DNA from: Alphaproteobacteria bacterium
Lineage (GTDB): Bacteria; Pseudomonadota; Alphaproteobacteria; Bin95
DNA: 64,000 bases
NCBI GenBank assembly: GCA_022827685.1
Contig: JAJEIH010000144.1
Location: forward strand, 1 to 64,000
Direction: 5' to 3'
The notes beneath the pieces are model-generated. The model saw nothing but the letters and a program-made list of their open reading frames with translations, was not told where the DNA came from and ran no database searches. Of the stretch, positions 788 to 50,796 are shown one piece after another. Position 1 is the first letter of the stretch, and each line of letters begins with the position of its first letter. A program made the position numbers and the translations under genes.

Positions 788-3700
788 ATGATATCCACGT
801 CTCGTGGTTCTCGCCGTTGTGCGCTGCCTCTCGTCCTCTCGGTCATGCTCGCGCTCGCGGCCTGTCAGCAAGCGGGCCCGATTCAGCGCTCGGACGGCTC
901 GGAGCACCCCGTGTCTCCCGGCGTTGCAGGTGCCATCGGCGAACGACGCGATACGGGACATGCAGGCTACCTCCCGGGGGAGAACGAAAGCGACGCCCCG
1001 CTGTCATCCCGCGGCTTCGGCATGCCGGCGTCGGGTATCCCGTTCGGAGACCGCATGGCAGGGTCATTCGGCGCCGGTCCGGTCTCCACGCTCGGACCGC
1101 TGGAACTCCACCACCCTCACGGCAGCAGTGCGACCGGCGCGGTCGGACTTTTCGACATTTCCGACCCTGGTGGCGGCGAACCGCGTGAACACGCGCTCGT
1201 CACACCCTCTCCCGTAACCTCCGCCGCCATCTCGCCTCACAGTCGCCTGATCGGCCACTCCTTCGACAACCCCATCGCCGCCGATCTCCTCGACCACTGG
1301 GGACACCGTCGCGTCCAGGGCCTCGTGGAGGGCTTCTCCCTGGGCACCGCCGGCCCGGATGCCGAGGTGGCCGGTATGCAGGGACTGTCACCCCGGGACC
1401 TGACGGGCGCGGGAGGGCTGCTGGCCGGCGAGCTTGAGGACGGCGACGAGGTCCGGCTCCTGGGCTCGCGCCACGGCGTCACCTACGGCCGGTGGACGGG
1501 CGGTCCGGCTGACACCCTTTCGATCGAGTTCGACCTTTCGCGAGCGGGACCGGTGATGCGGGACGACCCGGCGTTCCTCGCCATGCTGGAGCGTGCCGGC
1601 AAGGCATGGAGTCATCGAATCGCGGATACCCTCGCTACATGGGAGCGGGCGCCCGGAGACATAAAGGGCTGGCTGTGGAACAACGCCACACTCGAGTCCC
1701 GGGTGTTGGTCGGGACCGATGGTGAGACGAGCGCCGGATTCGAGATCGATGTCAAGGATAGCGACCTTTCCGGGGACGCGGCCGGCCGGGGAGGCGGATC
1801 CTGGAGCAGGCGTTTCGGACACGTCCAGATGGACAGGGATTACCTGGAGAGGGCCGGGGAGCGCTCCCTGATGGGGGTGCTCGCCCACGAGATCGGGCAC
1901 GTGCTCGGCGCCTGGACGACGGGTGACAGCCCCCCGGAGCACATCGAATCCCTCATCGACCGGACGGCGGGAACCTGGTCCGGACCGAACGTGGTCGCTC
2001 TGCACGGCGGTCCGGCGCCGTTCCAGAATGCTGCCGACCCGCACACCTGGGTCGACGGCGAGCGCAGTCCGTACGCCTCGCAGTTCGACTTCAACCACAG
2101 CGGCGTGTGCAGGTCGCTCCTGGCCTACTGCCGGCACCGGGACCCGCGGCCGTCCATTCTGCCGCATGCCATCGACTTCGCGTTCCTCTCGGACATCGGG
2201 GTGACGGTGACGGAGGAGACCGCCCGGCCGGAGACGTACGGCCTTGTCGGGTGGACCGACCACGCCGGGTTTTCGCTCTCCGTGTCTCGCCACCTCGAGT
2301 TCCACCTGCCGAACCGGGACGTGCGGAACAACCGAGGCGCCTGGTTTGCGGGCGCGCTCGACGTCACCGACCGGCTGCGGGTGGAGGTCGGCACGTTCGG
2401 GACGCACAGCGTCGGAGACCTTCTGCAGTCCTTCCCGGCCACGGACCTGCGGGGAACCGTCCGGTATGCGGGCGGGCTGCTGGGCGCGGCGCTCGACCTG
2501 ACGGGGCTCCCGCCGGTGACCGGGAGCAGCAGTCTCGCGGTGAACCTGGGCACCCTGGACGGCACCGCGAGCTTCACCTCGCTCGCGGTCCACGCTGACG
2601 GCGTGTCCGAGCCCTTTGCCGGCGGAGCGCTCCACTACGCCTTCGCACTCGACAGCAACGCGATTGTCGGCACAGAGGCTAATTCGATTCTGCTGGCGGA
2701 CTTCTACGGGCTACGGCACCAGGACGCCGCGGGCACACTCCACGACCCGGATGTCGGACTGCTCGCGAGCTTCGGCGCCACCCACGACGACCGGCCGGCG
2801 CGCGAGGACGTGGTCGCCTCCGCCGACCACCTGTCGGGCCTCGCCTGGCGAAGCGGCTCGGTGGTCGCGGCCGAGAACGGGTGGGCCGAATACCGGTGCG
2901 GCGCCGATTGCCAGGGGCGCGACGTGGTATCGGGCCTGTGGGGCGAGTGGACGCCGGAGACTCGCGCGAGCGTGCTCGCGGCCACGGCCGGATGGAGCCG
3001 CAAAGGCACCGCACGACCTCATGCGGACCACGACTATGTGCGAATCGCGCGCCAGACGGCGCCCTCCGCGGACGGAGGCGCCGATGCGGCCGAGGGCTAT
3101 ACCGGGACGCTGGAGCACGGTGCATTCGGCACCGGATTCGAGACCTACACGGACCCGCGGGCGGATCTCGGCGCGGATGTCGAGGAGGTATGGACCGGCA
3201 TCCAGGGTGAGGCGTCGGGCGGCGTCCCCACCGGGTCGGCGCGGTGGTCCGGCCTCATGCTGGGGTACCGGCAAGGCCACGCGGCCGGTGAAGATCCGTT
3301 CGTCGAGGGACAAGCGAGCCTCGAGCTCTCGCTGCCCGAGAGCGTGCTGGACGTGGCGTTCTCCGGCGTTGCGAGCCTTGACGGCGAGCATCACCTCGAC
3401 GACTTCGGCTTCGAGAACATCTTGATGCAGGACGACGGAACGTTCGCGGGCGGCGGCCGCACCGGAGCCCTGAGAGGTGCGCTCTTCGGTCCCGCCCATG
3501 AGGAGGCCGCGGGCGCGTTCCACCACAATGCGGCGCGGGTCACCGGCAGCTTCGGCGCCACGCGTCTCCCGGATCCGGCGCTGGTGGGGGAGGACGCCTT
3601 TGCCGGGACCGGGCTGCCCATCGTCGACCTGGATGACACCTGGCATGTCGGCGCCGACGTCGCCCCGGAGGCCGACGCGCTCACCCTGGGGCGCGAGCGC

Positions 3701-4999
3701 AACGGGGTCGCCGTCTCGTCCGGAGAGGTGCAGGACGGGGAGAGCGCGGAGCGGGTGGTCGAGTACCTGACACAGCTGATCGATGACCGTTCCGGAAGCA
3801 GAACCGCGGGCCTCCCGACCCTGTCGGCACCGCCGATCGTCCGTCTGGCGGAAGGCACGAGCGACGCGTTCGCCGCGTATGTGGAGCACACCATCCAGCT
3901 CATCAACGCGGCTCTTCCCGTCGAGAAGCGCATCATATTGAGTCCCGAGCCGGCACCGCCCTTGGCCGCGCTCGCGGACGTTCCCGAAGGCCAGATATTC
4001 ATCGACTTCGCACCGTCGAAAGACGACTGGGTGCTTGGAGGCCGTTACAGATATACTGGGGCGGGTCACGCTGTCGAAATCGATCCGACGGCCGAGTACG
4101 ACACCGCCGCGCGGCGATGGGAGTTCGTCGGCATGCGGGCGGGGCGGATATGGTTCGACCGGGAAGTCCTCGAGACCAATCTGAACACAGTGTGGATACG
4201 GGACTGGGACACGGGCGAGTGGCGGACCGAGCAGCGGGAGTCCCGACCCGACGAGAGCGATTCGGTGCAGCACTACTACCCGGACCAGTACGTGCCAAGG
4301 ATGACCATGTCCGCACTTCTTCGCGCGCTCGGATTTTTGCGCCGCGTCGATTCCGCCGATTTCCCGGACTCGTACCTGAATGACGGGACTCGCCCACGGA
4401 TCAGGCACCTCCCGGTCATCGACGGCGAAGCCCTGTTCGCCGCGTACGACAGGCTCGCCCCGGGCACCCTGGCGGAGGACCTGTCGGCCGAGAGCCTGGG
4501 TCCGTGGGACGACACGTCGTTCCACCTTCGGGGGGATCTGGACTTTACGGGCGGAGAGGCCGCATTCGGCGTCGCGTTCCGCAACGGTCTCGCGCGACCC
4601 TGGGCCGTGGGTACCGCCCCGCTGTCGGAGCTCGGGAACAACTCCGCCCTGTTCGGTACGGCGAGCTGGAACGGTGCTTTGCTCGGCGTCACGCCGGCGG
4701 CAGAGACCGTCGTTGGGCAGGCGCGCCTCACCGTCGAGCTCCGGACCCTGGACGCCGACCTCGCTTTCAGCGACCTGGAGCATTGGGGGGTGGAGCAGGC
4801 GCCGGGCGCGGCCGGAACCGGTGCGAGGTGGGGCGATGGCGGCCTTGAATACTCGATCGAGATCCGCGGGAACGCCTTCCATCGCGCTGACGGAGACGAT
4901 GGCGAGATCGTCGGCGCGTTTTTCGGCGCCGCGCACGAGGCGATGGGCGGCGTACTCGAACGAAGCGATCTTGCTGCCGGCTTCGGCGGGGTGCGGTAG
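788..4999 (+). CDS. lipoprotein with HExxH metalloprotease motif and three TbpB-like beta-barrel domains
   Basis: 1,403 residues. The N-terminus has basic residues, a hydrophobic stretch and the lipobox LAAC with Cys26, so a lipid-anchored, exported protein is expected. A zinc-protease signature HEIGHVLG lies at residues 367-374, inside a region that contains further His residues (PPEH, SILPHAIDF); the third ligand is uncertain. After it come three copies of the small barrel seen in transferrin-binding protein B-like lipoproteins. They are at about residues 535-670, 815-925 and 1285-1403, and each ends with a G-x-(L/F)-(F/Y)-G-x-x-H-type strand pair (ADFYGLRHQDAAG, GALFGPAHEEAAG, GAFFGAAHEAMGG) and a closing SFGA or AGFGG. 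A further stretch (about 1000-1280) is unassigned. In known relatives such barrels are displayed on the cell surface by Slam translocators; no Slam gene is in this window. The start at 788 is chosen for the signal sequence, although the ribosome site is weak. The combination of protease and barrels is unusual; the enzymatic activity is inferred. Confidence 0.82.
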   Translation: MISTSRGSRRCALPLVLSVMLALAACQQAGPIQRSDGSEHPVSPGVAGAIGERRDTGHAGYLPGENESDAPLSSRGFGMPASGIPFGDRMAGSFGAGPVSTLGPLELHHPHGSSATGAVGLFDISDPGGGEPREHALVTPSPVTSAAISPHSRLIGHSFDNPIAADLLDHWGHRRVQGLVEGFSLGTAGPDAEVAGMQGLSPRDLTGAGGLLAGELEDGDEVRLLGSRHGVTYGRWTGGPADTLSIEFDLSRAGPVMRDDPAFLAMLERAGKAWSHRIADTLATWERAPGDIKGWLWNNATLESRVLVGTDGETSAGFEIDVKDSDLSGDAAGRGGGSWSRRFGHVQMDRDYLERAGERSLMGVLAHEIGHVLGAWTTGDSPPEHIESLIDRTAGTWSGPNVVALHGGPAPFQNAADPHTWVDGERSPYASQFDFNHSGVCRSLLAYCRHRDPRPSILPHAIDFAFLSDIGVTVTEETARPETYGLVGWTDHAGFSLSVSRHLEFHLPNRDVRNNRGAWFAGALDVTDRLRVEVGTFGTHSVGDLLQSFPATDLRGTVRYAGGLLGAALDLTGLPPVTGSSSLAVNLGTLDGTASFTSLAVHADGVSEPFAGGALHYAFALDSNAIVGTEANSILLADFYGLRHQDAAGTLHDPDVGLLASFGATHDDRPAREDVVASADHLSGLAWRSGSVVAAENGWAEYRCGADCQGRDVVSGLWGEWTPETRASVLAATAGWSRKGTARPHADHDYVRIARQTAPSADGGADAAEGYTGTLEHGAFGTGFETYTDPRADLGADVEEVWTGIQGEASGGVPTGSARWSGLMLGYRQGHAAGEDPFVEGQASLELSLPESVLDVAFSGVASLDGEHHLDDFGFENILMQDDGTFAGGGRTGALRGALFGPAHEEAAGAFHHNAARVTGSFGATRLPDPALVGEDAFAGTGLPIVDLDDTWHVGADVAPEADALTLGRERNGVAVSSGEVQDGESAERVVEYLTQLIDDRSGSRTAGLPTLSAPPIVRLAEGTSDAFAAYVEHTIQLINAALPVEKRIILSPEPAPPLAALADVPEGQIFIDFAPSKDDWVLGGRYRYTGAGHAVEIDPTAEYDTAARRWEFVGMRAGRIWFDREVLETNLNTVWIRDWDTGEWRTEQRESRPDESDSVQHYYPDQYVPRMTMSALLRALGFLRRVDSADFPDSYLNDGTRPRIRHLPVIDGEALFAAYDRLAPGTLAEDLSAESLGPWDDTSFHLRGDLDFTGGEAAFGVAFRNGLARPWAVGTAPLSELGNNSALFGTASWNGALLGVTPAAETVVGQARLTVELRTLDADLAFSDLEHWGVEQAPGAAGTGARWGDGGLEYSIEIRGNAFHRADGDDGEIVGAFFGAAHEAMGGVLERSDLAAGFGGVR

Positions 5000-5247
5000 T
5001 ACCGCGCAATCGGCATGCCGACCAAGCGCAACGCTGTCTCGTACCACGGCATGCGGTCGAGCCCCGGAGGCCCGCCGTCCCGCCACGGTACGCTACCCGT
5101 ATGGCGGGCCACCGGCCAGGCGCGCACCCCGATACGATCGTCGGCGGGCGAGGCGGCGAGCGAGCAGGGGCAACGCCCGAGCAATCGGTCGGATTGCCGA
5201 ATGAACCCGGCCCACATTCCCCCAACCCGAACCGGAGAACAGGACAC

Positions 5248-6246
5248 GTGAACATCATCCGCACTCTCGGCTGTGGCGCTCTTGCGCTGACGATAACCGC
5301 TTGCGGCGGGACCGCCGTGGACCGGTACATGCCGTCGGACGACGAGTTGGCGCGGTTCGAGCGGGTCACGAACTTCGACGGGCGGGTGCTGGAGATCGAC
5401 CTGCCCAGAGGCGACGGGACGCGGGACCGGTTCGATTCGGTTCGCGACGAATGGTCTTCCTGGAGCTATGTTCCGCCGCTCCGCAATCATGCGGGACGGC
5501 GCTGGACACTCGGGAAGACGACCGCCACACACGTCTCACTGGTCTATGCCGTGGTAAGCTGGAACGACGACAACCCCACCGACTACCTGGCCGCGGGCTG
5601 GTGGCTCCAGTTTCCCGGTCCGTACTCGTTCCGTCGGCGCCTTTCGCTGCTGGACGCGGAGGGGGATGCGTTCGTGGACGGCCCGGAACTCGACGTGTTC
5701 TCGCACCCGCCCCGGCTTCCGGTCGCCGGAAACGCCACCTATGTCGGAGGCGCGGGGGGGTTCTATCGGTACCGGGACGGCGGGACGGAATCCGGCACAT
5801 CCGCGCATGTCGAGGAGTTCAGCGGGATCATGACCATGACCGCGGACTTCTCGGCCGGTACGCTGCAGGGCTGCCTGGGCTGCCTCGGAGACCTCGTGGC
5901 GGAGCGCGAGCACCTGTATCTGGTTCTGGGACGCCCGCAGGGGGAGCCGGTGGTGCCGCCGACGGACTACGAGCTGCACTTCGGGGTCACCGACATCAAC
6001 CCTAACGGAACATTCGTGGGCGCCGACGTGAAGGTAATGCATCCCGAGCGGACGGTGACAGAGTCGAGCGGGTACTGGGACGGCCGCCTGTCCAACCGGC
6101 CGGACCCTAACGGCAACCCCAGGCTGGTGGCGGGATCGTCCGATGTGACGTTCGTCGAGGACGACGCGAGCGAGGGTCAGTTCCGGAGCCTGTTCACGGT
6201 CGTCGGCGAGTCGCTCACTCCACCCGTACCGAACCTGAACCAGTGA
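5248..6246 (+). CDS. TbpB-like barrel surface lipoprotein, copy 1
   Basis: 332 residues from a GTG start at 5248, chosen because GGAG lies just upstream and because this start gives a clean lipoprotein signal with lipobox TACGG. The N-terminal half has the block DYLAAGWWL and GPELD. The C-terminal half is a TbpB-like barrel: ATYVGGAGGFYRY, an EFSG strand, ADFSAGTLQGCLGCLG with a CxxC pair, then SNRPDPNGNPRLVAGSS and FVEDDASEGQF. The same blocks recur in the gene at 7637-8662, so the two are paralogues in opposite orientation. Likely outer-membrane and possibly surface exposed; the ligand is unknown. Transcription probably follows the protease-barrel gene at 788, with a 248-nt gap. Confidence 0.8.
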   Translation: MNIIRTLGCGALALTITACGGTAVDRYMPSDDELARFERVTNFDGRVLEIDLPRGDGTRDRFDSVRDEWSSWSYVPPLRNHAGRRWTLGKTTATHVSLVYAVVSWNDDNPTDYLAAGWWLQFPGPYSFRRRLSLLDAEGDAFVDGPELDVFSHPPRLPVAGNATYVGGAGGFYRYRDGGTESGTSAHVEEFSGIMTMTADFSAGTLQGCLGCLGDLVAEREHLYLVLGRPQGEPVVPPTDYELHFGVTDINPNGTFVGADVKVMHPERTVTESSGYWDGRLSNRPDPNGNPRLVAGSSDVTFVEDDASEGQFRSLFTVVGESLTPPVPNLNQ

Positions 6247-6257
6247 ACCGCCGGAAG

Positions 6258-6476
6258 TCAGCCGCGTCGGTGCATGCCAGCCAGCGCCGACGCCATCACC
6301 GCAATGGGGCCAACGACCGCCCCGTTCTCCTGTTCGACAACCGCCTGGTCGCTCTTGCGTCAGGGCCGGCAGCGCCTGAACTCGACGCCAGCGTCGCGAC
6401 AATAGTCCCGAACCGTCTTGTTCATGAACACGCTGTCGTTGTCGGTGTCGAACCCCGGCAAATCCAATAGGTGAAG
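6258..6476 (-). pseudogene. rve-type DDE transposase C-terminal fragment
   Basis: Reading leftward on the minus strand gives DTDNDSVFMNKTVRDYC, GVEFRRCRP, then an in-frame TGA (6360-6362) where the family has a Tyr, then RKSDQAVVEQENGAVVGPI. These are the second catalytic Asp region (DNDSVF) and the catalytic Glu region (VEQENG) of an integrase-core transposase. The 5' two thirds are absent and the 3' end stops at 6258. It is a dead insertion-sequence fragment with one nonsense codon in otherwise readable sequence. Confidence 0.72.
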
Positions 6477-6617
6477 ATTAATTGCGGAAATCTCCAGAAG
6501 CCACCAACACTGTATATTGTGCCTGTTGCATCGGGTAACGGGGCACTCGGCGAGTGCCGTTTCTCTTCCGGCTCTGCCCCATCGATCGACTGATCGAACT
6601 GGGGAGGAAGGGTCTCG

Positions 6618-6745
6618 ATGACGAGGATCGGCAGAACCGACATCAAGGATATTCTTTGCCACCGTCACGGTCTCCGTCTGCCGCGTGCGCGGATTGCGGC
6701 GGCAGTGAGCTCCAGGCACCGGCGCCGGGCCGGGTCCCTGACAGA
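6618..6745 (+). pseudogene. IS21-type IstA N-terminal fragment, copy 1
   Basis: From ATG 6618 the translation begins MTRIGRTDIKDILCHRHGLR and then LPRARIAAAV, resembling the N-terminal helix-turn-helix of IS21 IstA transposases. The similarity is lost after about 30-40 residues and no IstB is present. The 30 or so bases from the start codon resemble those at 9019 (MKRTGMTNIKDI), so two copies of the same element end are present. The small hairpin GGCACTC/GAGTGCC at 6542-6558 lies just upstream. Apart from these pieces I see nothing coding in 6477-7023. Confidence 0.5.
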
Positions 6746-7023
6746 CGAAGAATCCAGGGGCCGTTTCCCTGCTTCCCTGCGCCATGTGGTGCCGGACAAT
6801 TTCGCACGCAGGAGCATCGAGCGGCAATATGCTTTGCTATAGGCGAGTTCCAGCCAGCCACCCTTCACCTCCTCCCGGAGAAGACCAGTGACCCTTTCCC
6901 TCCGGCAGCCGGCAGGCGCGACAATTAACACAAGACGAACCCATCCTTGCGGCCGCTATTGTACGCTGTTCGTGCAGTTATTCTGCCTGTGAACCCAAAA
7001 GACAGGGAAGGGAGTTTTCCTGA

Positions 7024-7281
7024 ATGTTAGACGAATCTGCCCTGACCAAGGGTCAGTTGCGAAAGCTCAACGCACTCCGCAACTCCGTTGGCCCGTCCAT
7101 CGCTGACGAGGCGTTCGCCAAATGGCTCGATCAGGAGCGCGAGATGCAGGAAATCGACGAAAATGCCGAGACGATTTCCGATGCGTTGTGGAGCCTGGTC
7201 CAGGACGGGAAGCTTTCGATCCGGCGGGGCGGCTATATCGTCCGCCGGGGTCGTGGCCGCGTGATTGTGGAAGCCGGATAG
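7024..7281 (+). CDS. small hypothetical protein
   Basis: 85 residues, preceded by GGGAAGGGAG about 9 nt before the ATG, so translation is likely. The protein is charged, mostly helical by eye, with the segment SIADEAFAKWLDQEREMQEIDENAETI followed by a basic C-terminus SIRRGGYIVRRGRGRVIVEAG. No signal peptide or membrane segment. I do not recognise a family. The composition and isolation among insertion-sequence debris suggest an accessory gene; a nucleic-acid-binding role is possible from the basic tail but is only a guess. Confidence 0.6.
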   Translation: MLDESALTKGQLRKLNALRNSVGPSIADEAFAKWLDQEREMQEIDENAETISDALWSLVQDGKLSIRRGGYIVRRGRGRVIVEAG

Positions 7282-25917: not shown

Positions 25918-26008
25918 GGGGAGGTGGCCGAGTGGCTGAAGGCGCACGCCTGGAACGCGTGTATACGGTAACCCCGTATCGTGGGTTCGAATCCCACCCT
26001 CTCCGCCA
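25918..26008 (+). tRNA. tRNA-Ser (anticodon GGA)
   Basis: Acceptor GGGGAGG (25918-25924) pairs with CCTCTCC (25998-26004) with one G-U, then G and an encoded CCA. The anticodon stem CACGC/GCGTG closes the loop CTGGAAC with anticodon GGA. The long variable arm TATACGG...CCGTATC and the T-loop GGGTTCGAATCCC are type II features of serine tRNAs. Confidence 0.95.
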
Positions 26009-27166: not shown

Positions 27167-27604
27167 CTATCCGAGGTGAGCGACTTCTACGCCGCCCCAA
27201 CGGTCGTTCAAATACTCCGCCACCAACCGGCGGTGACAATGGTGGGGCTTGTCCTCGCTACACAGCAGGCACCCGTCCGCAACGAGTTCCTCGGGAATCG
27301 CCCTCTCGATCCGACGCTGGCGCATCAGTTCGAGGAAGCGGGCCTCGTAGGTCTCCCAGTCGCCGCCTTGCTTCTTGTACTCGTCCAGCATCTCCTTCGT
27401 AGGCGCGAGTTCGGGCAGGTGGACGTACTCCATCCCACAGATCTCGGCGAGGAAGAATGCGAGGTCGTTTCGCTTGGCGAAACCGGCGAGCTGGGACATG
27501 TTGTTGAGCCGGACGTCCACCACGCGCTTTGCGCCGGATGCGCGCAGCAGACCGAAGAATCGGTCCGCTGATTTCTTGGTGAAGCCGATGGTGTACACTT
27601 TCAC
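27167..27604 (-). CDS. DUF488 protein, short copy
   Basis: 145 residues. Begins YTIGFTKKSADRFFGLL, the DUF488 opening strand and helix, with VDVRLNN, EYVHLPELAPTKEML and the conserved motif CLLCSEDKPHHCHRRLVAEYL (C-S-E, CHR). The family function is not established; the conserved Cys/His/Arg cluster suggests binding of a nucleic acid or metal. Overlaps the preceding DUF488 gene by four bases (ATGA). Last gene of the four-gene operon read from 30180. Confidence 0.85.
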   Translation of the reverse strand: MKVYTIGFTKKSADRFFGLLRASGAKRVVDVRLNNMSQLAGFAKRNDLAFFLAEICGMEYVHLPELAPTKEMLDEYKKQGGDWETYEARFLELMRQRRIERAIPEELVADGCLLCSEDKPHHCHRRLVAEYLNDRWGGVEVAHLG

Positions 27605-28224
27605 GAAGGTTGCTCCACGGTATGAACAGCGAGTTCGTCATCTACATGCGCGACCCGTTCGGATTGTCGCGTGATAGCTGTGGCAACCAGTTCCTCGCGC
27701 GTAGCATAAAGGTCCCTGCGAGGAAGCCTCTGCAAGTCGAGCAAGCGGTCCATCGCTTCGCCGTGCGGCTCCGCCCGGCCGCTGGCGTGAATATGCGCAA
27801 CATCGACGCCCTGCTCATCCAAAGCCTGGGATACTAGGAGAGTCCGGTGGCAGTCGAGCGGCTCCTTCTCCGCGCACATCAGCGCGATTCGGTACTTGGT
27901 GGCGCCATGAACGACCCGAACCAGTCCGCTCTTGAACGATTCCGTTGCCGCGACACGGTCGTAGCGGATTCGTCCATCTGCGTAGCAAGTGGGATCTTCG
28001 GACCGGCCCCCCAGCACATCGCCGAGATACACGTACCGGATCCCCTCCACGCCCAGGGCTTCTGCAAACGGCTCGCGGTTGAACTGGGGATTGAACCGGC
28101 TGTAAGGCATGGAGCGGACATCGGCTACCGCGGTCACACAATGCGTCTGCAATAACGCAATAAACGCCTTCAGCGTATGTGTCGAATGACCAATGGTAAA
28201 CACGTTACCGCGAACTTCTTTCAT
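27601..28224 (-). CDS. DUF488 protein, long copy
   Basis: 207 residues. Opens with VFTIGHSTHTLKAFIALL, then VADVRSMPYSRFNPQFN, YVYLGDVLGGR and the signature LMCAEKEPLDCHRTLLVSQAL. The first 150 residues cover the domain; the basic tail of about 55 residues is extra. It differs strongly from the short copy, so the pair is not a recent duplication. It starts 5 nt after the dual-OB-like gene and is coupled to the short DUF488 gene. Confidence 0.88.
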   Translation of the reverse strand: MKEVRGNVFTIGHSTHTLKAFIALLQTHCVTAVADVRSMPYSRFNPQFNREPFAEALGVEGIRYVYLGDVLGGRSEDPTCYADGRIRYDRVAATESFKSGLVRVVHGATKYRIALMCAEKEPLDCHRTLLVSQALDEQGVDVAHIHASGRAEPHGEAMDRLLDLQRLPRRDLYATREELVATAITRQSERVAHVDDELAVHTVEQPS

Positions 28225-28229
28225 CGAAG

Positions 28230-28916
28230 CTACCTTCGTTGTTCTTGGATGACCGCGGCGATGAGTTTGTAGACGGCACCCCCGAACGGTTCTCCAAGGC
28301 TAACGGTCAGAAAGCACTCGCCAACGGGATAGGTTCCATCCAGCTTTGCCAGATATTGCCGCTCGTATACCGGATCGGTAACCCACAGGCGGTATCCGCT
28401 TCCCTCATGGGTAAAGCGTCCCTGAACACGCCGTTTTGTGTTTCCAAATGCTTCACCGGGCTTGAACACCGAGAATTGGAGGTCGTCGACATAAACCAGT
28501 TTCAGCGAATCCTTGACCGAATCTGCAATTTCCAGCGGAATCTTGTCGTTCCGCCCATGATACGTACTGTGGCCGTCGAGCCAAAGTCGAGATGCGGGTT
28601 CTGCGAGCGTCGGCAAATCGAACCACGACAGCCTGCCCACCCTCTCCCAGTAGTACTCAGGGTCGAGCAGCCAGTTCTCGGACTGAAAGCTCCGCGGGCG
28701 CGGTTCCACCATCGGAATGTCGATCACATCGAGGACGCGTGGATCGCTGCCGTCCTCGTACTGGCGCTCGTACTCGGATACCTCCTGATGTTCCCGGCTG
28801 CTGACGGGGCGAATCCACCGGCCAGCCCGACCGTCATTCCACTCCCGGCCGGCGATACACCGGCCGTGCAGCTTTCGGGAATTTGCAAGACAGACGATTC
28901 GCTTCAGGTTTTGCAT
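28230..28916 (-). CDS. unknown protein, dual-OB-like, DUF488-associated
   Basis: 228 residues, no signal or membrane segment. N-terminal text RIVCLANSRKLHGRCIAGRE and IRPVSSREHQEVSEYERQYE, a central WLDGHSTYHGRNDKIP and a C-terminal strand-rich block GSGYRLWVTDPVYERQYL. From memory, proteins of this layout are found beside DUF488 genes and described as carrying two OB-type domains; the call is tentative. A nucleic-acid or nucleotide recognition role would fit. Start at ATG 28916 has no strong ribosome site and lies 16 nt after the preceding stop, so coupling is likely. Confidence 0.7.
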   Translation of the reverse strand: MQNLKRIVCLANSRKLHGRCIAGREWNDGRAGRWIRPVSSREHQEVSEYERQYEDGSDPRVLDVIDIPMVEPRPRSFQSENWLLDPEYYWERVGRLSWFDLPTLAEPASRLWLDGHSTYHGRNDKIPLEIADSVKDSLKLVYVDDLQFSVFKPGEAFGNTKRRVQGRFTHEGSGYRLWVTDPVYERQYLAKLDGTYPVGECFLTVSLGEPFGGAVYKLIAAVIQEQRR

Positions 28917-28932
28917 CGGGGTTGCCGCGTCT

Positions 28933-30180
28933 TCACGCTGCAGGAAGTGTTTTTGCCGCGGGAATCACGAGCCGCAATTCGCTTTCGTCGATCATGGCGT
29001 ACTCGGGAAGGCAGCCGGAGAGCTTCTCGCATTCGTCCCTGATAATGGGCACCCCATCTCCGCGGCGGTCCATCAGGCGCGAGCGTCCGACATTCGCCGG
29101 GGCTTGGCACCGCGCCAACAAGGACACGATGAGCTCGTTCCTGCTGGATTGCCGGAGATGCATCGAGTCCGGGGTGAGGGTATTTGGCAGCGCTCCTGGT
29201 ATGTAAAGCTCGATTCGGTCGCTGAACATATGCAACCGTACGCGTGCACCTGCCAATGAGTAGTCCCGGTGTGCGACTGCGTTCACAAGCGCTTCGAATG
29301 CGGCTCTCTCGCCGAACTGCGGGTGTTCGGTCCGCGCCGTCGATTTTGTCGCACGGACGAGCATGTTCCGTTGCACGAAATGCAAGGCTTCCGCGACTTG
29401 TTCGTCAAGCGGCCCGCCGATATCGCGTGTATCCGTTTGGTAGTCGATGTCGGTGCGCTCCCCCGCGTAACTCACTGCCTGGATATACGCATGCGGGAGC
29501 CATCTTTGAGGCTCCCGCGTACACAGGAGAACCCCGGCCAGCGTAAGCCGTGAGACGCCCCGATCATCGTCTGCGACCACGCGAAGCTTCCGTGCAAGCT
29601 CTTCGGTGACGCCTTCATCCGCAAGTCTTTCCCGCAGGAAACGACGCGTCAGCGCGTAATCCAGATCGCTCGGTGTCGTGCCGGGCACCATCGACTCATC
29701 GAAGCGAATGATGCGGCTCTGGCTGCGTTGCTCAAACAGGCGCGCCAGAAGTTCCGGGGCCATTTCGCGCTTCGAACTGCCCAAGCGGCGAAAGTATCCG
29801 CCCGGGCTTCGATGCACGAAGAGGCTGCGGGAAATTTCGATGCAAATAACGGGAACGGCCCTGCCGGACGCGCCCTGTAAATTCAGCTTGTAAATATCGG
29901 CATCCAGCGCAGGCTTGACAGAATCGTTGCAGATCTCGCGAACCCAACCTTCCACTGCGTCGAGGCTGTCGAGCGGTATGCCCGTAACCTTCCGCGTCCT
30001 GTCGTCAACCCCGAGGACTACTGTGCCGCCTTTCGTATTAGCAAAGGCCGCCAGTTCATCTGCGAATTCGTTTCGGCTCGGGCCTTCGACTCGATCTCCG
30101 GCCACCACGACACTCTTGAGTTCCAAGGCCGAGTCCTCGCCGAGTCCGATGCGCTCGGCCAAGTCTTCGAATCGGTTCAC
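28933..30180 (-). CDS. AlbA_2 (Schlafen-like) plus HATPase_c_4 protein
   Basis: 415 residues from GTG 30180 with GGAAG nine bases upstream. The N-terminal domain is AlbA_2: EDSALELKSVVV, EFADELAAFANTKGGTVVLGV and a YFRRLGSS strand at the end. The C-terminal domain is the GHKL-like HATPase_c_4 with RAAFEALVNAVAHRDY, RIELYIPGALPNTLT and RNELIVSLLARC, followed by RRGDGVPIIRDEC. Such proteins are annotated as RecG-like or as transcriptional regulators, and Schlafen-type domains occur in phage-defence genes. First gene of the lower-GC operon; it could regulate it or be the effector. Confidence 0.85.
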   Translation of the reverse strand: MNRFEDLAERIGLGEDSALELKSVVVAGDRVEGPSRNEFADELAAFANTKGGTVVLGVDDRTRKVTGIPLDSLDAVEGWVREICNDSVKPALDADIYKLNLQGASGRAVPVICIEISRSLFVHRSPGGYFRRLGSSKREMAPELLARLFEQRSQSRIIRFDESMVPGTTPSDLDYALTRRFLRERLADEGVTEELARKLRVVADDDRGVSRLTLAGVLLCTREPQRWLPHAYIQAVSYAGERTDIDYQTDTRDIGGPLDEQVAEALHFVQRNMLVRATKSTARTEHPQFGERAAFEALVNAVAHRDYSLAGARVRLHMFSDRIELYIPGALPNTLTPDSMHLRQSSRNELIVSLLARCQAPANVGRSRLMDRRGDGVPIIRDECEKLSGCLPEYAMIDESELRLVIPAAKTLPAA

Positions 30181-43116: not shown

Positions 43117-44265
43117 ATGGGCGGTGACATGGATTTCGAGGCTTATCTGGCCGAGGTGGAGGCGTTCACGCGCGAGGAGCTGATCCCGAACGAGGAGCGG
43201 GTGGAAGAGCTGGGCCATGTGCCCGAAGACCTCGTGCGGCGGATTTGCGAGATGCGGCTCTTCGCCATCTCGATCCCGGAGGAGTATGGCGGGCTCGGCC
43301 TCACCCAGGAGCAGCAGGTGCGGCTCACCTTCGCGTTCACGCAGGCCTCGGCCGTGTTCCGCGCCCGCTTCTCGACCACGATCGGGCTCTGCAGCCAGGC
43401 GATCCTCGACTTCGCCACGGAGGCGCAGAAGCGGAAATACCTGCCCGCCATGGCGGAGGGCCGCTGCACCGGCGCCTTCTCGCTGACCGAGCCGGACTAC
43501 GGCTCCGACGCGGCCAATCTCGCGACGACGGCGGTGCGCGACGGCGCGGACTATGTGCTGAACGGCACCAAGCGCTACATCACCAACGCGGCGGACGCCG
43601 ACATGTTCCTGGTCATGGCGCGCACGGGCGGCCCGGGCGCGGGCGGCGTCTCGGCCTTCGCGGTCGATGCCGGCACGCCGGGCATCCGCGCGGGCGCGCC
43701 CGTCGCCATGATGGGGCATAGCGGGTCCCGGGTATCGGAGGTCTATCTGGAGGACTGCCGCGTGCCCGGGGACGCGCTGGTCGGCGGACAGGAGGGGCTC
43801 GGGCTCAAGGCGGCGCTCAGGGGCATCAACCATGCGCGCACCCATGTCGCCGCCACCTGCGTCGGGCAGGCGAAGCGGCTGGTCGGCGAGGCGGTCCGCT
43901 ATGCCCGCGGGCGCCGCCAGTTCGGCAAGGCCATCGGCGAGCACCAGCTCGTCCAGGCCATGCTTGCCGACATGCGCGCCGACACCTATGCGGCCGAAGC
44001 GATGGTGCTGGACTGCGCCCGGCGGTTCGAACGGCGCCCGCTGCCCTTCGCGGACATCGCCTGCGCCAAGTATTTCGCCTCCGAGATGGTGAGCCGGGTC
44101 GCCGACAAGGCGGTCCAGATCCTCGGCGGCCAGGGCTATATGGCCGAAAACGCCGTCGCCCGCCTTTACCGCGACACGCGGCTGTTCCGCATCTTCGAGG
44201 GCACGTCGCAGATCCAGCAGCAGCAGATCGCCCGCGCCATGCTGCGCGACGAAGCCGACGCTTAA
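43117..44265 (+). CDS. acyl-CoA dehydrogenase
   Basis: 382 residues; ATG 43129 is an equally possible start. Blocks: SIPEEYGGLGLTQEQQVRL, GAFSLTEPDYGSDAANLATT, YITNAADADMFLVM, QFGKAIGEHQLVQAMLADMR, VQILGGQGYMAENAVARLYRD and FEGTSQIQQQQIARAML. The GYMAENAVARLYRD segment carries the usual C-terminal substrate-side residues. Function in fatty or branched acyl-CoA oxidation. Stands alone between the TA pair and UspA. Confidence 0.92.
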   Translation: MGGDMDFEAYLAEVEAFTREELIPNEERVEELGHVPEDLVRRICEMRLFAISIPEEYGGLGLTQEQQVRLTFAFTQASAVFRARFSTTIGLCSQAILDFATEAQKRKYLPAMAEGRCTGAFSLTEPDYGSDAANLATTAVRDGADYVLNGTKRYITNAADADMFLVMARTGGPGAGGVSAFAVDAGTPGIRAGAPVAMMGHSGSRVSEVYLEDCRVPGDALVGGQEGLGLKAALRGINHARTHVAATCVGQAKRLVGEAVRYARGRRQFGKAIGEHQLVQAMLADMRADTYAAEAMVLDCARRFERRPLPFADIACAKYFASEMVSRVADKAVQILGGQGYMAENAVARLYRDTRLFRIFEGTSQIQQQQIARAMLRDEADA

Positions 44266-44337
44266 ATTCCCCGCCCCGGCGCACCATATCGAGGGCATGG
44301 GGGCGGCGGCCGCCGCCCGTTGCCGGAGGGGTGTGAG

Positions 44338-45177
44338 ATGGGTCTCAAGAACATTCTCGTGCATGTGGATGGCAGCGACCGCGCCGGGGAGCGCATTCGC
44401 GTGGCCGCAAGTCTCGCCGGGGCGGATGACGGCCATCTGACCGGCGTCTTCGTTTCTCCGGACCCGCTGATTCCGACCTGGATGGTGGCGGGGATGCCGC
44501 CGAGCACGCTGGAGGCCGCCGTCGAAAGGGTCCGCGGCGAGGGCGAAGCGGCGCGCGGGCGCTTCCTGGAGATCGCGGAACGGGCCGGCGTCCATGCAGA
44601 ATGGCGCATGGCGTCGGGGTCGGTCAGCCATGTGACGGCGTTGCACGCGCGCTATGCGGACCTCGCCGTGGTCGGCAAGGGCAGCGCGTCGGAGCCGGAG
44701 CTCTATCCCTATCCGGACCTCGCAGCGGACCTCACCATGAGCTGCGGACGCCCGGTCCTGGTGGTGCCCAACTCCGGACGGTTCGACGTGCTGGGCGAGA
44801 ACATACTCGTGTGCTGGAACGCCAGCCGCGAGGCCACGCGGGCGGTCAACGACGCCATGCCGCTCCTGCGCCGGGCGGAGAAGGTGGTGGTCCTCTCCGT
44901 CAATGCGCACCGGCCTTCCGGCGGCGACCACGGCGAAATCCCGAGCGCCAATATCGCGCTGCACCTGGCGCGCCACGGCGTGAACGCCGAAGCCGCGAAC
45001 ACCGTCGCCGACGGCATTGCCGTCTCGGACATCGTGCTCTCGCATGTGAGCGACCGCGGCATCGACCTCATCGTCACGGGCGCCTGGGGCCATTCCCGGA
45101 TGCGCGAATGGGCGTTCGGCGGCGTCACGGCCTCGCTGCTGCGCGACACCACGGTTCCCGCCCTGATGTCGCATTGA
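44338..45177 (+). CDS. universal stress protein, two Usp domains
   Basis: 279 residues from ATG 44338 with GGAGGGG upstream. Two Usp folds in tandem: residues 1-140 (NILVHVDGSDRAGERIRVAA, DLAVVGKGSASEP) and 150-279 (NILVCWNASREATRAVNDAM, DLIVTGAWGHSRMREWAFGG). The second half has the GxWGHSRxxEWxFGGVT ATP-binding loop. Cytoplasmic stress protein. Confidence 0.9.
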   Translation: MGLKNILVHVDGSDRAGERIRVAASLAGADDGHLTGVFVSPDPLIPTWMVAGMPPSTLEAAVERVRGEGEAARGRFLEIAERAGVHAEWRMASGSVSHVTALHARYADLAVVGKGSASEPELYPYPDLAADLTMSCGRPVLVVPNSGRFDVLGENILVCWNASREATRAVNDAMPLLRRAEKVVVLSVNAHRPSGGDHGEIPSANIALHLARHGVNAEAANTVADGIAVSDIVLSHVSDRGIDLIVTGAWGHSRMREWAFGGVTASLLRDTTVPALMSH

Positions 45178-45241: not shown

Positions 45242-46507
<1,266 letters not shown>

Positions 46508-46513
46508 AACGTC

Positions 46514-49369
46514 TTAGTCAGGCGGCGAGGAAATCGGGATGCAGTCAGCGCCGGCGAGCGGCACCAGCCCGTTGGGGTGCTTGAAGCGCGTGCTTTCAGC
46601 CGACAGTCGTTGATTGGCAACGACCATAATACTGTCAAAGGTCTTTCTCCGTTCTTCTCTGTCCATGTTTGGTGCCTGTGCCGTCATGACCGGCGAAACA
46701 AGCCAATGGGAGACGAATGGCGGATTTGCTTCGATTACACCGTTCGAACCGGTGAAGAGCGTCACGAAATCCTCGGTGAGCGGGTCCCCCTGATCGTTTT
46801 GCCAGCGAAGTTTGACCGCAGCCAACGTACCTGGCCCGCCGGCGGAGGAATTCGTCGCAGCGTAAAACCCATCGAATTGCTCAGATTTTGCAAACTCAAT
46901 CAAATCTTGAAAGAACGGCGTTTCAAAGTCTAGCAACACAACATCCCGGGCTCTCTGCGCGATGCGTCGGTCGGTCGTGATCCTAACCACCGTTCGCTGC
47001 CCAAACTCAGCGAAGTCCCCCCGCATATTGTCCGGCAGCCGAATCTCCAGAACGCCTCCGTTATAGAGCTCCGATTCTATCTGTATCCCCATGATTGGCA
47101 GCATACCTCGGACGAACAAATCGACATGCTGCATTGTGAAACCAAGTGTTCCGCTAAGCGCATTCGGGTCGTATCCTGCGACATGCGTGAACAACTCGTC
47201 CTGTAGCTCCTTCGCCGATTTCGCGCGCTCCAACGCTTCGTCAATCTGTTCTCGCGTTCGTTCCACTTGCATATCTGTGGCGGACTGGAGTATTGTGGAC
47301 AGGTCAATATTGTCCAATACTTCGCCCAAAATCTCAGCATATAGCCGTTCATTGTATTCAGTACCAACCGGAGTCATATCCTGGACGATTTGAGATACAC
47401 GCTGAAGCATCAAGTCAATCACGCCGTTATCGAAGCTATCCTGTGCATGAAGATTGAATACAACAACTGTTTCTGTCTGGCCATATCGGTAGAGGCGGCC
47501 AATACGTTGAACGAGACGCGCTGGGTTCCAAGGAAGATCGTAATTGACCATTACGTGGCAGGATCGATGAAGATTTATGCCTTCTCCACCGGCCTCAGTT
47601 GAAATTAAGAATTGCGAAGACTCGTTAAATGCGTCAATCGCATCGAGTTTTTCATCTAACGTCATCGAACCGTTGATTAGCTCAACTGTCCCCACTTGCT
47701 GAAAGCGACGCTCGACGGCTTCTTTCAGGTAGGTTTGTGTTGCTCGATATTCAGTAAAGATCACCAGCTTCTTTTTCTCGGATACAAGGGGAGACACGAC
47801 ATCATCTAAGAATATGCGAAGCTTTTCGTCGTCTGCCTTAGCTTGCTCAGCTGCTTCCAAAAGATCCTCGATAAGGTCCTGCTCAAACTCGAAAAACTGT
47901 CCGATTCTGCTGTCTGTGGAAACGTCGGCCAGATTATCCTGATCGTCGCTGCCCTCTGCCAAATCGTCCAACGTCAGCCGGTCGTGATTCTGCGTCGCCT
48001 TGTCGTGTATGAACTCGCCCGCGAGGCGTTCCAACCGTCGATATAGTGCATGCTCAATCGCCGCGATGCTTGAAGAAGAAAGTTTGCGGTATGTCGTCAT
48101 AACGAAACCAATAGCGCGCCCGGCCATTCCACGGCTATCGCCCGCCCGATATCCGCGCCGTAAATAATCCTGCAACAAGCGTTGAAACCGCCTGGTGTCC
48201 TTTGATGGTGTGACAGCAACACGGTGAATCTGCTGCCCGTGAAAGATAAAGTTACCATCCGTATCCGTGACTTCGCTCTTCCGGTTGCGGAGTATTAACT
48301 CGCTCACGACTTCAGGATTCGCCGCCAGCGTATGGATTCGTTCGCGTAAATCCGGCCGGACTAGGTCCAGCAGCGCAATGAACCTATCAGCATAACCTTG
48401 GTGGGGAGTGCCACTGAGGAGAAGGAAGGCGTCCGACATGCCGCGCAATGCTTCCGCTAGCCGATAGCGCTCCGTCCGCTCGCCGCTGGCATAGCGCGTC
48501 AACTTGTGGCCTTCGTCGAAGACGACAATGTCCCAACCGGGTGCCTGACGAAACAAGCGGAGATGCTCTTCCCGTTTTGCCATGTCGATAGACACAATGA
48601 CCTGATCGTAAAGTTTCCAGTGTTCGCGCTTCTGGATCTGGATATCGCGACCATAGATCATGTAGTGCTGGTCGAACTTATACTGCATCTCATCCTGCCA
48701 CTGGCGGGTCAGGCCGGCAGGTGCGACGACAAGCACTCGGCGTGCTTGGCCTTTCCGTTTCATCGCCGCCAGCAGTAGGCCAACCTCAATGGTTTTGCCG
48801 AGGCCGACATCATCTGCGATCAACCAGTTATAGTTTCCGGAGCTGAGGATACGATGGACAAGCTGAATCTGGTGTGGCAGGGGGTCGACATCGAGCCGAT
48901 CGAGTGCTCCAGTCAGGTGATTCCAGTTTTCCAACGCGTGCGCCAGCAGCCGTAACCGTAGTCGCTCAGCGTGGTCGGCGACGCGCGTTTCGGCCCGCTC
49001 ATAGCGCAGGCGGACCCCTTTGATCCGGCGGAGGTTTTCATAGGGTAGCCAGACCGAGCGGCCGTCTTCGTCGAGTTGCACCAGAATCTGCTGGCGTCCA
49101 CCGAGCTCCCGACGACTAACGACGGTGCCGGTGCCGAGCGGCTTTCGTGTGTTTGAGATAGGCACGTCCTGTACCGCCCAGCCGAGGCTGAACCCGGAGA
49201 CGAGACGTTGCGGATCGTACCATTCGGTGTCGCCGTTGCCCCATCGCACCTTCACTTGGTCCCTGGCCTTCCCCGGCCTGCGACCTTCGACCTGACCGGG
49301 CACACGCTGTTCGGCATCCTTACGCATCACCCAGCAACCCACGACCGGAACGAGGCCTTCAGTTACCAT
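46514..49369 (-). CDS. RapA-like SNF2 helicase
   Basis: 951 residues from ATG 49369, chosen because CGAGGAAA lies upstream; ATGs at 49387 and 49405 are possible. N-terminal Tudor/KOW-like strands (QVKVRWGNGDTEWYDPQRLV, VWLPYENLRRIKG) precede a two-lobe SNF2 motor: DDVGLGKT (189-193 for GLGKT), DEGH (285-288), LLSGTPHQG, FTEYRATQTYL, STEAGGEGINLH and VQRIGRLYRYGQ. The organisation is that of RapA/HepA, with DDVG in place of DEVG. The C-terminal 230 residues are of no family I can name. Coupled to the acidic protein upstream (11-nt overlap). The line at 47101 counts 30/60 GC against 44/60 at 46381 in the P450 gene, so the gene is foreign. SNF2 helicases of this kind occur in several phage-defence systems. 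Confidence 0.88.
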   Translation of the reverse strand: MVTEGLVPVVGCWVMRKDAEQRVPGQVEGRRPGKARDQVKVRWGNGDTEWYDPQRLVSGFSLGWAVQDVPISNTRKPLGTGTVVSRRELGGRQQILVQLDEDGRSVWLPYENLRRIKGVRLRYERAETRVADHAERLRLRLLAHALENWNHLTGALDRLDVDPLPHQIQLVHRILSSGNYNWLIADDVGLGKTIEVGLLLAAMKRKGQARRVLVVAPAGLTRQWQDEMQYKFDQHYMIYGRDIQIQKREHWKLYDQVIVSIDMAKREEHLRLFRQAPGWDIVVFDEGHKLTRYASGERTERYRLAEALRGMSDAFLLLSGTPHQGYADRFIALLDLVRPDLRERIHTLAANPEVVSELILRNRKSEVTDTDGNFIFHGQQIHRVAVTPSKDTRRFQRLLQDYLRRGYRAGDSRGMAGRAIGFVMTTYRKLSSSSIAAIEHALYRRLERLAGEFIHDKATQNHDRLTLDDLAEGSDDQDNLADVSTDSRIGQFFEFEQDLIEDLLEAAEQAKADDEKLRIFLDDVVSPLVSEKKKLVIFTEYRATQTYLKEAVERRFQQVGTVELINGSMTLDEKLDAIDAFNESSQFLISTEAGGEGINLHRSCHVMVNYDLPWNPARLVQRIGRLYRYGQTETVVVFNLHAQDSFDNGVIDLMLQRVSQIVQDMTPVGTEYNERLYAEILGEVLDNIDLSTILQSATDMQVERTREQIDEALERAKSAKELQDELFTHVAGYDPNALSGTLGFTMQHVDLFVRGMLPIMGIQIESELYNGGVLEIRLPDNMRGDFAEFGQRTVVRITTDRRIAQRARDVVLLDFETPFFQDLIEFAKSEQFDGFYAATNSSAGGPGTLAAVKLRWQNDQGDPLTEDFVTLFTGSNGVIEANPPFVSHWLVSPVMTAQAPNMDREERRKTFDSIMVVANQRLSAESTRFKHPNGLVPLAGADCIPISSPPD

Positions 49370-50591
49370 CGCCGTTTCCTCGGACATTATTTTGAGAGGC
49401 GACACCCGCCGGGCTGTTGGGCTGTTCGCCAGAGGGCAATGGGTGTCCCCAGGCTATGGCGTGGCTCTCCACGTCGCTGAATGCGCTTTCGACTTGGTCC
49501 CGGCGGTCCCCGAACTCGTCGGGCTCGCGCTGCTGCAGGTCGCTCCAACTTGGCACATCCTGAAACGTCTCATCGACGGCCATCACCTTCATTCCTATGA
49601 ATTGTGGAAAATTCCGGCACTTGTCGTCGTAGGGGGGCAGACACAGCCATTCATACACCCAAGAATCGTCGATCATGTATTCCGGTGGAAAATCTGATCG
49701 TGCCTCGCAAATCGAACGGGCCAGTTTCCAAGTCAAAGCGGTATCGCCGTTGCGCAAAGTCCTGACACTGCGACCCCATCCGTAGCGGCCGAGCCACCAC
49801 TCCTGTCGGTCCTCCCAGATGTCGCGCAGTGCTGCCATGTTGCGCAGTGTCTCGCTGCTAACCCCGCTGTCCACTGCGGCGAGAATGGCGCGGTAGGTCG
49901 TGGGGTGATTGCGATGCTGGAACAGGTCAATCAGCCAAGGCAAGATTGCATGCCGTTCCCGTTGTGAAGTGAAGGATAGCCGGGAGATGACTTCGGCCGC
50001 CTTCTGTCGCGCGCGCAGTGGCAGGTCAGCAACATCTTCCGGATCATCGTCCCAGACGCTCTGGTGCGCTTCTTCATCGTAGTCGAAGAGCTCGATCTCA
50101 ATGTCGGGTCCCGTTTCGAAATAGTTTGCATCGGGATCCTCTGAGTACCCAAGATCTTCCTCTAAATCGTCTTCGTCCCAGTCGTCTCCCTTATCATCGC
50201 CGTCGATGTCCACGACGGGTGGGTTCTTACTTTCTTCTAGAACTGGCAGTTCTGCACGCGCTTCTTCTTTCTGCTGCGCTTCCGGCTGTTCCGCGAAACC
50301 AGAATCAAGTGGCAGTGGCAGGATAGGCGCCGCGTGTGGTGGAGATTCAGGAACCTCCGGTTCGACGGTTTCCCGCGAGACAAGCCGTTGCTCTGGCGTG
50401 TCGTCGTGCCAAGGATCGAAGATCGCCTCCTCGTCCTCGCTGGTCTGTAGGAAGTCTTCGTTTTCCCATGTTTCAAGCGTGGCGGAGGGAGCCGGTGCGG
50501 TGGCGCGGAACAACGGCAGGCGAAGGCGGCCAAACCAATCCCGGACAAGGGGGCGCCCTGGGTTTTCCTGCTTTGAACCGCGGGAGGTCAC
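49359..50591 (-). CDS. acidic unknown protein, partner of the SNF2 helicase
   Basis: 410 residues from GTG 50591. Residues about 60-200 are low complexity and strongly acidic (DIDGDDKGDDWDEDDLEEDL and FDYDEEAHQSVWDDDPEDVA). A folded C-terminal half follows: RARQKAAEVISRLSFTSQRE, WLIDLFQHRNHPTTYRAILA, VSSETLRNMAALRDIWEDRQ and EYMIDDSWVYEWLCLPPYDD. No signal or membrane segment and no catalytic motif recognised. The acidic linker could mimic DNA or bind a basic partner such as the helicase N-terminus. Found only with the helicase here; the two form a two-gene low-GC unit. Confidence 0.72.
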   Translation of the reverse strand: MTSRGSKQENPGRPLVRDWFGRLRLPLFRATAPAPSATLETWENEDFLQTSEDEEAIFDPWHDDTPEQRLVSRETVEPEVPESPPHAAPILPLPLDSGFAEQPEAQQKEEARAELPVLEESKNPPVVDIDGDDKGDDWDEDDLEEDLGYSEDPDANYFETGPDIEIELFDYDEEAHQSVWDDDPEDVADLPLRARQKAAEVISRLSFTSQRERHAILPWLIDLFQHRNHPTTYRAILAAVDSGVSSETLRNMAALRDIWEDRQEWWLGRYGWGRSVRTLRNGDTALTWKLARSICEARSDFPPEYMIDDSWVYEWLCLPPYDDKCRNFPQFIGMKVMAVDETFQDVPSWSDLQQREPDEFGDRRDQVESAFSDVESHAIAWGHPLPSGEQPNSPAGVASQNNVRGNGDGN

Positions 50592-50653
50592 AACAAACCT
50601 ATCCCCCCAACACTCTCACTGGGTACTCCCCGGACGGCTTCGTCAAACTGTAT

Positions 50654-50682
50654 ATATCAGCAAAATCAATATAGACCGGCAA
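50654..50682 (-). promoter_or_regulatory. candidate promoter of the helicase module
   Basis: On the minus strand TTGCCG (50677-50682) and TGATAT (50654-50659) are separated by 17 nt, in a markedly AT-rich leader about 62 nt before the GTG. The match to a sigma-70 promoter is moderate only. The 205-nt gap 50592-50796 has no gene. Confidence 0.3.
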
Positions 50683-50796
50683 TAGATTTTGGAAATTGCA
50701 GCCATTTCTCGGCTTTAGCCCACCTTATCGTTTACTCACCACGCTACTGCTGCCTCGGCTTGGAATCCCTGCCGGTCGCCGCCGCGTCGTAAGGCG

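Follow-up and report, generated by a model that had tools for sequence, protein, structure and literature searches.

RapA/BrxHII-type SNF2 helicases are known in BREX, BR/Hma, DISARM and ARMADA, always alongside several other proteins, so that the immune role of the helicase has been hard to isolate. In BREX type 3, BrxHII acts in an operon with PglZ, BrxC and a methyltransferase. BrxHII has been described together with the BR (Hma) systems, which are centred on DUF499 and whose helicases combine Tudor, SNF2, inactive restriction endonuclease and alpha/beta domains and occur with an ATPase and a methyltransferase (PMC12839542). ARMADA includes a BrxHII/RapA-like helicase (ArmA), a YprA-like helicase and a PglX-like methyltransferase (PMC12458937). 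The RapA protein of Escherichia coli is a housekeeping RNA polymerase recycling factor of similar motor position and architecture, without an obligatory partner gene. Here, a two-gene cassette is described from a 64,000-nucleotide stretch of an alphaproteobacterial contig (JAJEIH010000144.1, positions 1 to 64,000; hereafter the window), in which a gene for an SNF2-family helicase follows a gene for a partner protein. A natural two-protein unit of this kind would allow direct study of the part played by the helicase in immunity.

The pair is probably a small immune system that is not yet in the catalogues searched, since its genes were never apart in the genomes checked, were recovered from four phyla and were often found among anti-phage genes. 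A probability of roughly 0.6 is given to its being an anti-mobile-element system that works approximately as proposed below. The pair's helicase and BREX type 3 BrxHII have in common an SNF2/RapA-type motor, an extra C-terminal region, a length of about 950 amino acids (aa) and a defence context, and may also share a small N-terminal beta domain, the flanking domains of the pair's helicase being seen only in a low-confidence model. PglZ, BrxC and the methyltransferase are all missing from the pair's surroundings, and no BREX counterpart of the partner was present in the libraries used. The BR/Hma helicase, which works with a DUF499 ATPase and an N6-methyltransferase, belongs to the same broad group, but in place of these two proteins the pair has an exclusive acidic, TPR-like or coiled-coil adaptor. 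No DUF499 match was found in the whole genome of the window and no large ATPase gene is adjacent, BrxC not having been searched genome-wide; likewise, no N6-methyltransferase gene lies beside the window pair and none is common to the loci. The DrmA/DrmB-like and methyltransferase genes of DISARM were absent beside the window pair and, by eye, at the stand-alone loci L005, L006, L016, L039 and L049. The helicase type is also common to ARMADA, whereas the YprA-like helicase and the PglX-like methyltransferase are absent beside the pair. The multi-gene systems known to use such a helicase depend on a methyltransferase, an ATPase or both, neither of which is present at the window pair. The sequence-only reading of this DNA had proposed a compact unit outside the known systems, and this was borne out by the libraries used. 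A description of the pair was not found in a literature search of 5.4 million open papers, subscription journals being mostly outside the search.

In addition to the window, 18 further loci were recovered (19 in total) from Pseudomonadota, Gemmatimonadota, Chloroflexota and Deinococcota. A scan of genome collections returned metagenome-assembled genomes of Gemmatimonadota (67% identity) and Chloroflexota (49%), and plasmid matches were obtained from Nitrosococcus halophilus (44%) and two Deinococcus species (42-43%). Profile searches, with seed genomes counted, found the helicase in 4 of 289 genomes of the window's class, 3 of 398 of the phylum sample, 2 of 64 of the Gemmatimonadota sample and 1 of 350 of the Chloroflexota sample. 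It was also present in 5 of 245 genomes of the order of genome G356, which was read as gammaproteobacterial from gene content and shares the window's phylum, not its class, and within this order one family had it in 8 of 46 genomes. The gene pair is thus rare, patchy and widely scattered. At all 19 loci, a frame matching the partner profile directly precedes the helicase in the same orientation, in most cases with an overlap or a gap of no more than about 40 nucleotides. The co-occurrence in many genomes anticipated by the sequence-only reading was therefore found, and the helicase homologues do not stand alone as ordinary RapA, being paired in 19 of 19 cases and forming a clade apart from RapA. 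When the partner alone was searched for, the same 4 of 289 class genomes and the same 5 genomes of 240 in the order sample were returned. Across the 529 genomes searched for both genes, the partner was found in 9 and the helicase in 9, and the partner nowhere without the helicase, in a search whose first-look filter could miss very diverged solo partners. Within the sampled genomes, the pair is obligate. Close relatives of either protein were not found in IMG/VR with single-protein queries, a profile query of IMG/VR gave only distant SNF2 helicases (at most 37% identity), and phage records gave partial distant matches only.

Defence genes (restriction-modification (RM), Wadjet, DrmD-like, Dsr1 or WYL) adjoin 11 of the 19 loci, a raw count with lineages unweighted and without a matched control. 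The Nitrosococcus plasmid locus has a Dsr1 neighbour, as annotated there. L017 carries a WYL regulator and an IIG-like methylase, and WYL is also found at L040 and L044. Mrr with HsdM and HsdS was present at L041 and L042, the latter also having Wadjet JetA and JetC, and a Hhe/PDC-S37-like protein is encoded next to the pair at L043. Type III RM genes were found at L044, L047 and L048, and a DrmD-like helicase directly 3' of the pair at L045 and L046. The assignments at L040 and L046, and that of the RM genes of L042, were made by sequence similarity to tested neighbours.

In the gammaproteobacterial family, seven of the eight loci carry, just 5' of the partner, a gene encoding a 218-aa protein with the motif RNQ(I/L)(I/V)H; in HEPN domains, the RNase site has the form Rx4-6H (PMC3710099). 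This gene is present at L041 (8268-8924), L040 and L042-L046, and a broken downstream copy was found at L017 (15295-15774). Plasmid relatives of the protein carry HEPN-domain annotations and are also found where the pair is absent. The gene, seen with the pair in one family, is hence regarded as an accessory and not as part of the core. The earlier claim that no nuclease gene is present accordingly holds for the window and not for this family, with its HEPN RNase-like gene beside the pair. On alphaproteobacterial plasmids, the HEPN relatives adjoin SbcCD-like or WYL/RecB-like genes, and the pair is absent there.

Further helicase genes adjoin the pair at L045, L046 and L048. The DrmD-like SNF2 gene occupies 4024-6927 (minus strand) at L045, scoring 330 bits to a PADLOC DrmD model, and has an equivalent at L046; its position directly after the pair places two SNF2 helicases side by side. 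At L048, a UvrD/GajB-like helicase and a Z1-domain helicase are encoded just 3' of the pair (4996-7074 and 2514-4712, respectively, both on the minus strand), and this is possibly another multi-helicase defence locus.

The features of the cassette in the window are the following:

46514..49369, minus strand: coding sequence of the SNF2-family helicase, 951 aa from the ATG at 49369, assigned by Pfam domains and a 19-member clade.
47201..48904, minus strand: SNF2 motor, approximately residues 168-735 in the 963-aa numbering, with ATPase/translocase motifs intact and invariant in the 19 homologues.
49031..49348, minus strand: N-terminal beta-strand region of the helicase (approximately residues 20-125) from a low-confidence model, resembling Tudor/SH3 in the pattern of its strands only; W55, G91, G93 and P121 invariant.
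46514..47200, minus strand: C-terminal region of the helicase past the motor, residues 736-963; R867, W868, Q869 and G873 invariant.
49359..50591, minus strand: coding sequence of the partner, 410 aa with a GTG start, without a family match.
50025..50204, minus strand: part of the partner richest in acidic residues (D/E at 29 of 60 positions), predicted to be unstructured.
49557..50039, minus strand: helical domain conserved in the C-terminal part of the partner, approximately residues 185-345, in which all 19 homologues have W259 and F328.
50592..50756, no strand: AT-rich leader 5' of the operon, from the sequence.

On the minus strand, the partner gene comes first and the helicase gene second. 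The open frame of the helicase covers 46514-49405 (963 aa counted from a GTG in the list of open reading frames), and on inspection of the sequence the ATG at 49369 was found to be the best start, with GAGGAA upstream (CCGAGGAAACGGCG-ATG). This start gives the 11-nucleotide overlap with the partner gene, which ends at 49359, whereas longer starts would give overlaps of 29 or 47 nucleotides. The GC content falls from about 70% outside to 49-60% at approximately 46.5-50.7 kb and then returns to about 70%. The overlap, the fall in GC and the AT-rich leader had all been claimed beforehand and stood, except that the dip proved uneven, with 49% in the 3' half of the helicase gene against about 58-60% in the partner gene. 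The leader has a single weak sigma-70-like match (50695-50668, minus strand) that is not clearly above chance; promoter and terminator matches at the cassette were at or near chance level, and no RNA families were found in 46-51.2 kb.

The helicase matched the Pfam families SNF2-rel_dom and Helicase_C above their cut-offs (68.4 and 71.7 bits, respectively). Its motifs include the Walker A sequence DDVGLGKT, DEGH as motif II (DEAH in many relatives) and QRIGRLYRYGQ, and 177 positions are invariant across the 19 helicases, including the core motor motifs and the four C-terminal residues listed above. With Walker A, DExH and motif VI intact, the protein is by its motifs an SNF2-family ATPase at the superfamily level, and the full SNF2 motor with DDVGLGKT described in the sequence-only reading is upheld. 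Among the PADLOC models, the nearest were two for helicases of defence systems, BrxH at 344 bits and DrmD at 300 bits. The NCBIfam scores were 328.6 for DrmD (cut-off 610), 202.9 for DpdE of the Dpd system (cut-off 500) and 169.2 for RapA NF003426 (cut-off 576), the last match falling in two separated stretches of the helicase. As all three lie below their cut-offs, the helicase belongs to none of these families. In a maximum-likelihood tree, the 19 helicases formed one clade (100/100), and all of the references (E. coli RapA, Bradyrhizobium DrmD, Trichormus DpdE, BR/Hma helicases and a haloarchaeal helicase) fell outside it. RapA grouped with DpdE, away from the pair clade, on long branches; several reference branches being long, the deeper branch order is unsure. 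The helicases of L010 and L011, which are encoded in operons with a methylase gene (L011 also with DUF499), formed the sister branch of the pair clade (94/89), and the Gemmatimonadota helicases were nested among the alphaproteobacterial ones. Two candidate identities were dropped: an orphan RapA, on the score just given and the separate clade, and a DISARM or BREX fragment, on the helicase's own clade and its conserved, exclusive partner.

The closest solved structure was E. coli RapA (6bog, E = 2e-30). In the structure models, which were built on three-sequence alignments, the N-terminal part of the helicase was predicted as beta strands. These strands fit a Tudor-like reading and are no proof of a Tudor domain, so that of the N-terminal Tudor-like strands proposed earlier, the strands are present in a low-confidence model and the Tudor identity has the strand pattern only. 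By analogy of architecture, residues 736-963 would occupy the position of the RapA/BrxHII-type alpha+beta domains (PMC12839542).

The partner matched nothing in Pfam, NCBIfam, PADLOC or PHROGs, and a known non-defence family, which the sequence-only reading had considered, was likewise not found in these libraries. Judged from its sequence, it is a new protein family, unrecognised by the libraries used. A C-terminal domain of about 160 residues, containing the invariant W259 and F328, is common to all 19 partners and was modelled as helices, with pLDDT values mostly of 75-89. With this domain, Foldseek gave no PDB match at E < 3, and the best VIA-align hit (Z = 5.6 over 64 residues, part of a clamp loader) was at the noise level for helical bundles; searching PDB sequences with a profile of the partner also returned nothing. 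This lack of a structural match is no demonstration of a new fold. The N-terminal part is variable. Residues 1-181 of the window partner contain 28% D/E against 7% K/R, and an acidic linker (28-31% D/E) is found in the window, L005 and L039. The gammaproteobacterial partners have an acidic linker and TPR-like repeats, which Pfam TPR_16 matches at E = 8.9e-06, short of the curated cut-off, and the Deinococcus partners have a region exceeding 1,100 residues that is coiled-coil-like by eye and non-acidic (9-10% D/E). The Chloroflexota partner has almost no N-terminal part, and its acidic tract is nearly absent. The acidic tract noticed earlier is hence real in the window but does not define the family, in which the C-terminal helical domain is the constant feature. 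No strongly conserved pattern like a catalytic site was seen in the partner, which appears from these features to resemble an adaptor or sensor subunit and not an enzyme; varying N-termini with a persistent C-terminal domain are as expected of an adaptor.

The cassette is an insertion, as indicated by an empty site in a genome of the same genus (G1320) and by the P450 3' end being partly repeated at the opposite edge of the insert. Its boundaries are the following:

46472..46507, plus strand: 3'-terminal stretch of the intact P450 gene (GLESLPVAASA*), the left insert boundary.
50757..50792, plus strand: second, partial copy of the P450 3' end (GLESLPVAAAS*; 36 bp), the right insert boundary.

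The insert lies between the P450 stop (46507), with the helicase stop 6 bp beyond it, and the flavoprotein gene, which ends at 50797. In G1320, where a profile search did not find the helicase, the acyl-CoA dehydrogenase, P450 and flavoprotein genes are in the same order with 82-86% DNA identity to the window, and the P450 stop is followed by a spacer of 211 bp before the flavoprotein gene, with no cassette between them; the site of insertion claimed from the window alone was thereby confirmed. With 24 of 33 bases identical to the true P450 end, the partial copy outscores every other stretch of the window (the runner-up has 22); it has the same orientation and lies at the boundary. This copy points to recombination at the P450 3' end, by which the cassette likely entered. 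No integrase or transposase was seen within the cassette. The pair is horizontally mobile, as seen from the G1320 empty site, the low GC content, the cross-phylum relatives and three plasmid copies. The neighbours of the cassette in the window, identified by reading open reading frames, are P450, universal-stress-protein (USP), acyl-CoA dehydrogenase and flavoprotein genes. The USP gene (44262-45177), between the acyl-CoA dehydrogenase and P450 genes, lies in a stretch that is missing in G1320, and the neighbourhood is thus generally plastic.

The pair is proposed to be a two-gene anti-mobile-element module, most likely anti-phage, that spreads by horizontal transfer. The second gene would encode a RapA/BrxHII-like SNF2 protein that actively translocates on double-stranded DNA and the first an obligatory adaptor, whose conserved C-terminal helical domain would bind the helicase. 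The variable N-terminal part of the adaptor (acidic linker, TPR-like repeats or long coiled coil, by lineage) may keep the motor inactive and/or guide it to invader nucleoprotein. Once engaged, the motor would travel along the invader DNA and strip or remodel bound proteins, such as polymerase or packaging complexes, and restriction would take place without methylation or a built-in nuclease; the HEPN RNase-like gene added in one gammaproteobacterial family may be an effector. The stronger claim, that this is an undescribed minimal immune system in which an SNF2 translocase and a new-family adaptor with exchangeable sensor modules (acidic, TPR-like, coiled-coil) remodel invader nucleoprotein without a methylation mark or intrinsic nuclease, is put forward tentatively, at clearly less than even odds.

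Several observations weigh against an immune role. The pair is rare, being present in about 1-3% of genomes in most samples, and 8 of the 11 defence-island loci come from one bacterial family and are hence non-independent. The expected location in defence islands was found at 11 of 19 loci but not at the other eight (the window, L005, L006, L016, L039, L049 and two Deinococcus plasmids), which by reading have ordinary metabolic or plasmid neighbours. The helicase model is poor (mean pLDDT 46), and since RapA is a housekeeping SNF2 protein, architecture alone is no proof of defence. One rival reading is a horizontally acquired RapA-like accessory of transcription or the nucleoid, acting on the host RNA polymerase or in DNA repair and not on invaders. 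RapA is indeed the closest solved structure, with a similar architecture, and several loci lie among metabolic genes, but the patchy distribution, strong mobility and island location, the score of 169 bits against the RapA cut-off of 576 and the placement of RapA with DpdE elsewhere in the tree (on long branches) make this account rather improbable. Slightly better odds, though still long ones, are given to a mobile toxin-antitoxin-like or abortive-infection pair, in which the acidic partner would neutralise a helicase that is harmful when free and is released by phage attack. The genes are small, strictly paired and overlapping, with the putative neutraliser first, the acidic tract is DNA-mimic-like, and plasmid copies and island locations are known; against this, Deinococcus lacks the tract (9-10% D/E) and Chloroflexota has hardly any of it, partners of 500-1300 aa are large for antitoxins, and helicases would be unusual toxins.

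A degenerate or orphaned fragment of BREX type 3, BR/Hma, DISARM or ARMADA, with the methyltransferase and ATPase lost or encoded elsewhere, would agree with a helicase core nearest to the BrxH and DrmD profiles and with the sister branch in operons with a methylase gene (and DUF499 in L011). This explanation is largely refuted by the 19 loci forming their own clade with their own exclusive partner, and both genes are intact with invariant motifs, no methyltransferase is common to the loci and DUF499 is lacking in the window's genome; it is considered quite unlikely. Least credible of all, with only a slim chance, is a selfish or plasmid-stability function with defence neighbours acquired only through the accumulation of mobile genes: three copies are on plasmids and islands gather many types of cargo, but most copies are on contigs without adjoining replication or transfer genes. 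An anti-mobile-element system is therefore the preferred reading of the pair.

Elsewhere in the window, a second low-GC stretch (27601-30180, 57-60% GC) carries three minus-strand genes. Read by eye, the one at 27601-28224 encodes a DUF488-like protein and the one at 28933-30180 an ATP-binding protein of AlbA_2/Schlafen-like type, with the gene for a 228-aa protein (28230-28916) between them. A tRNA-Ser gene (25918-26008) lies 1.6 kb from this stretch, which is possibly another cargo cassette.

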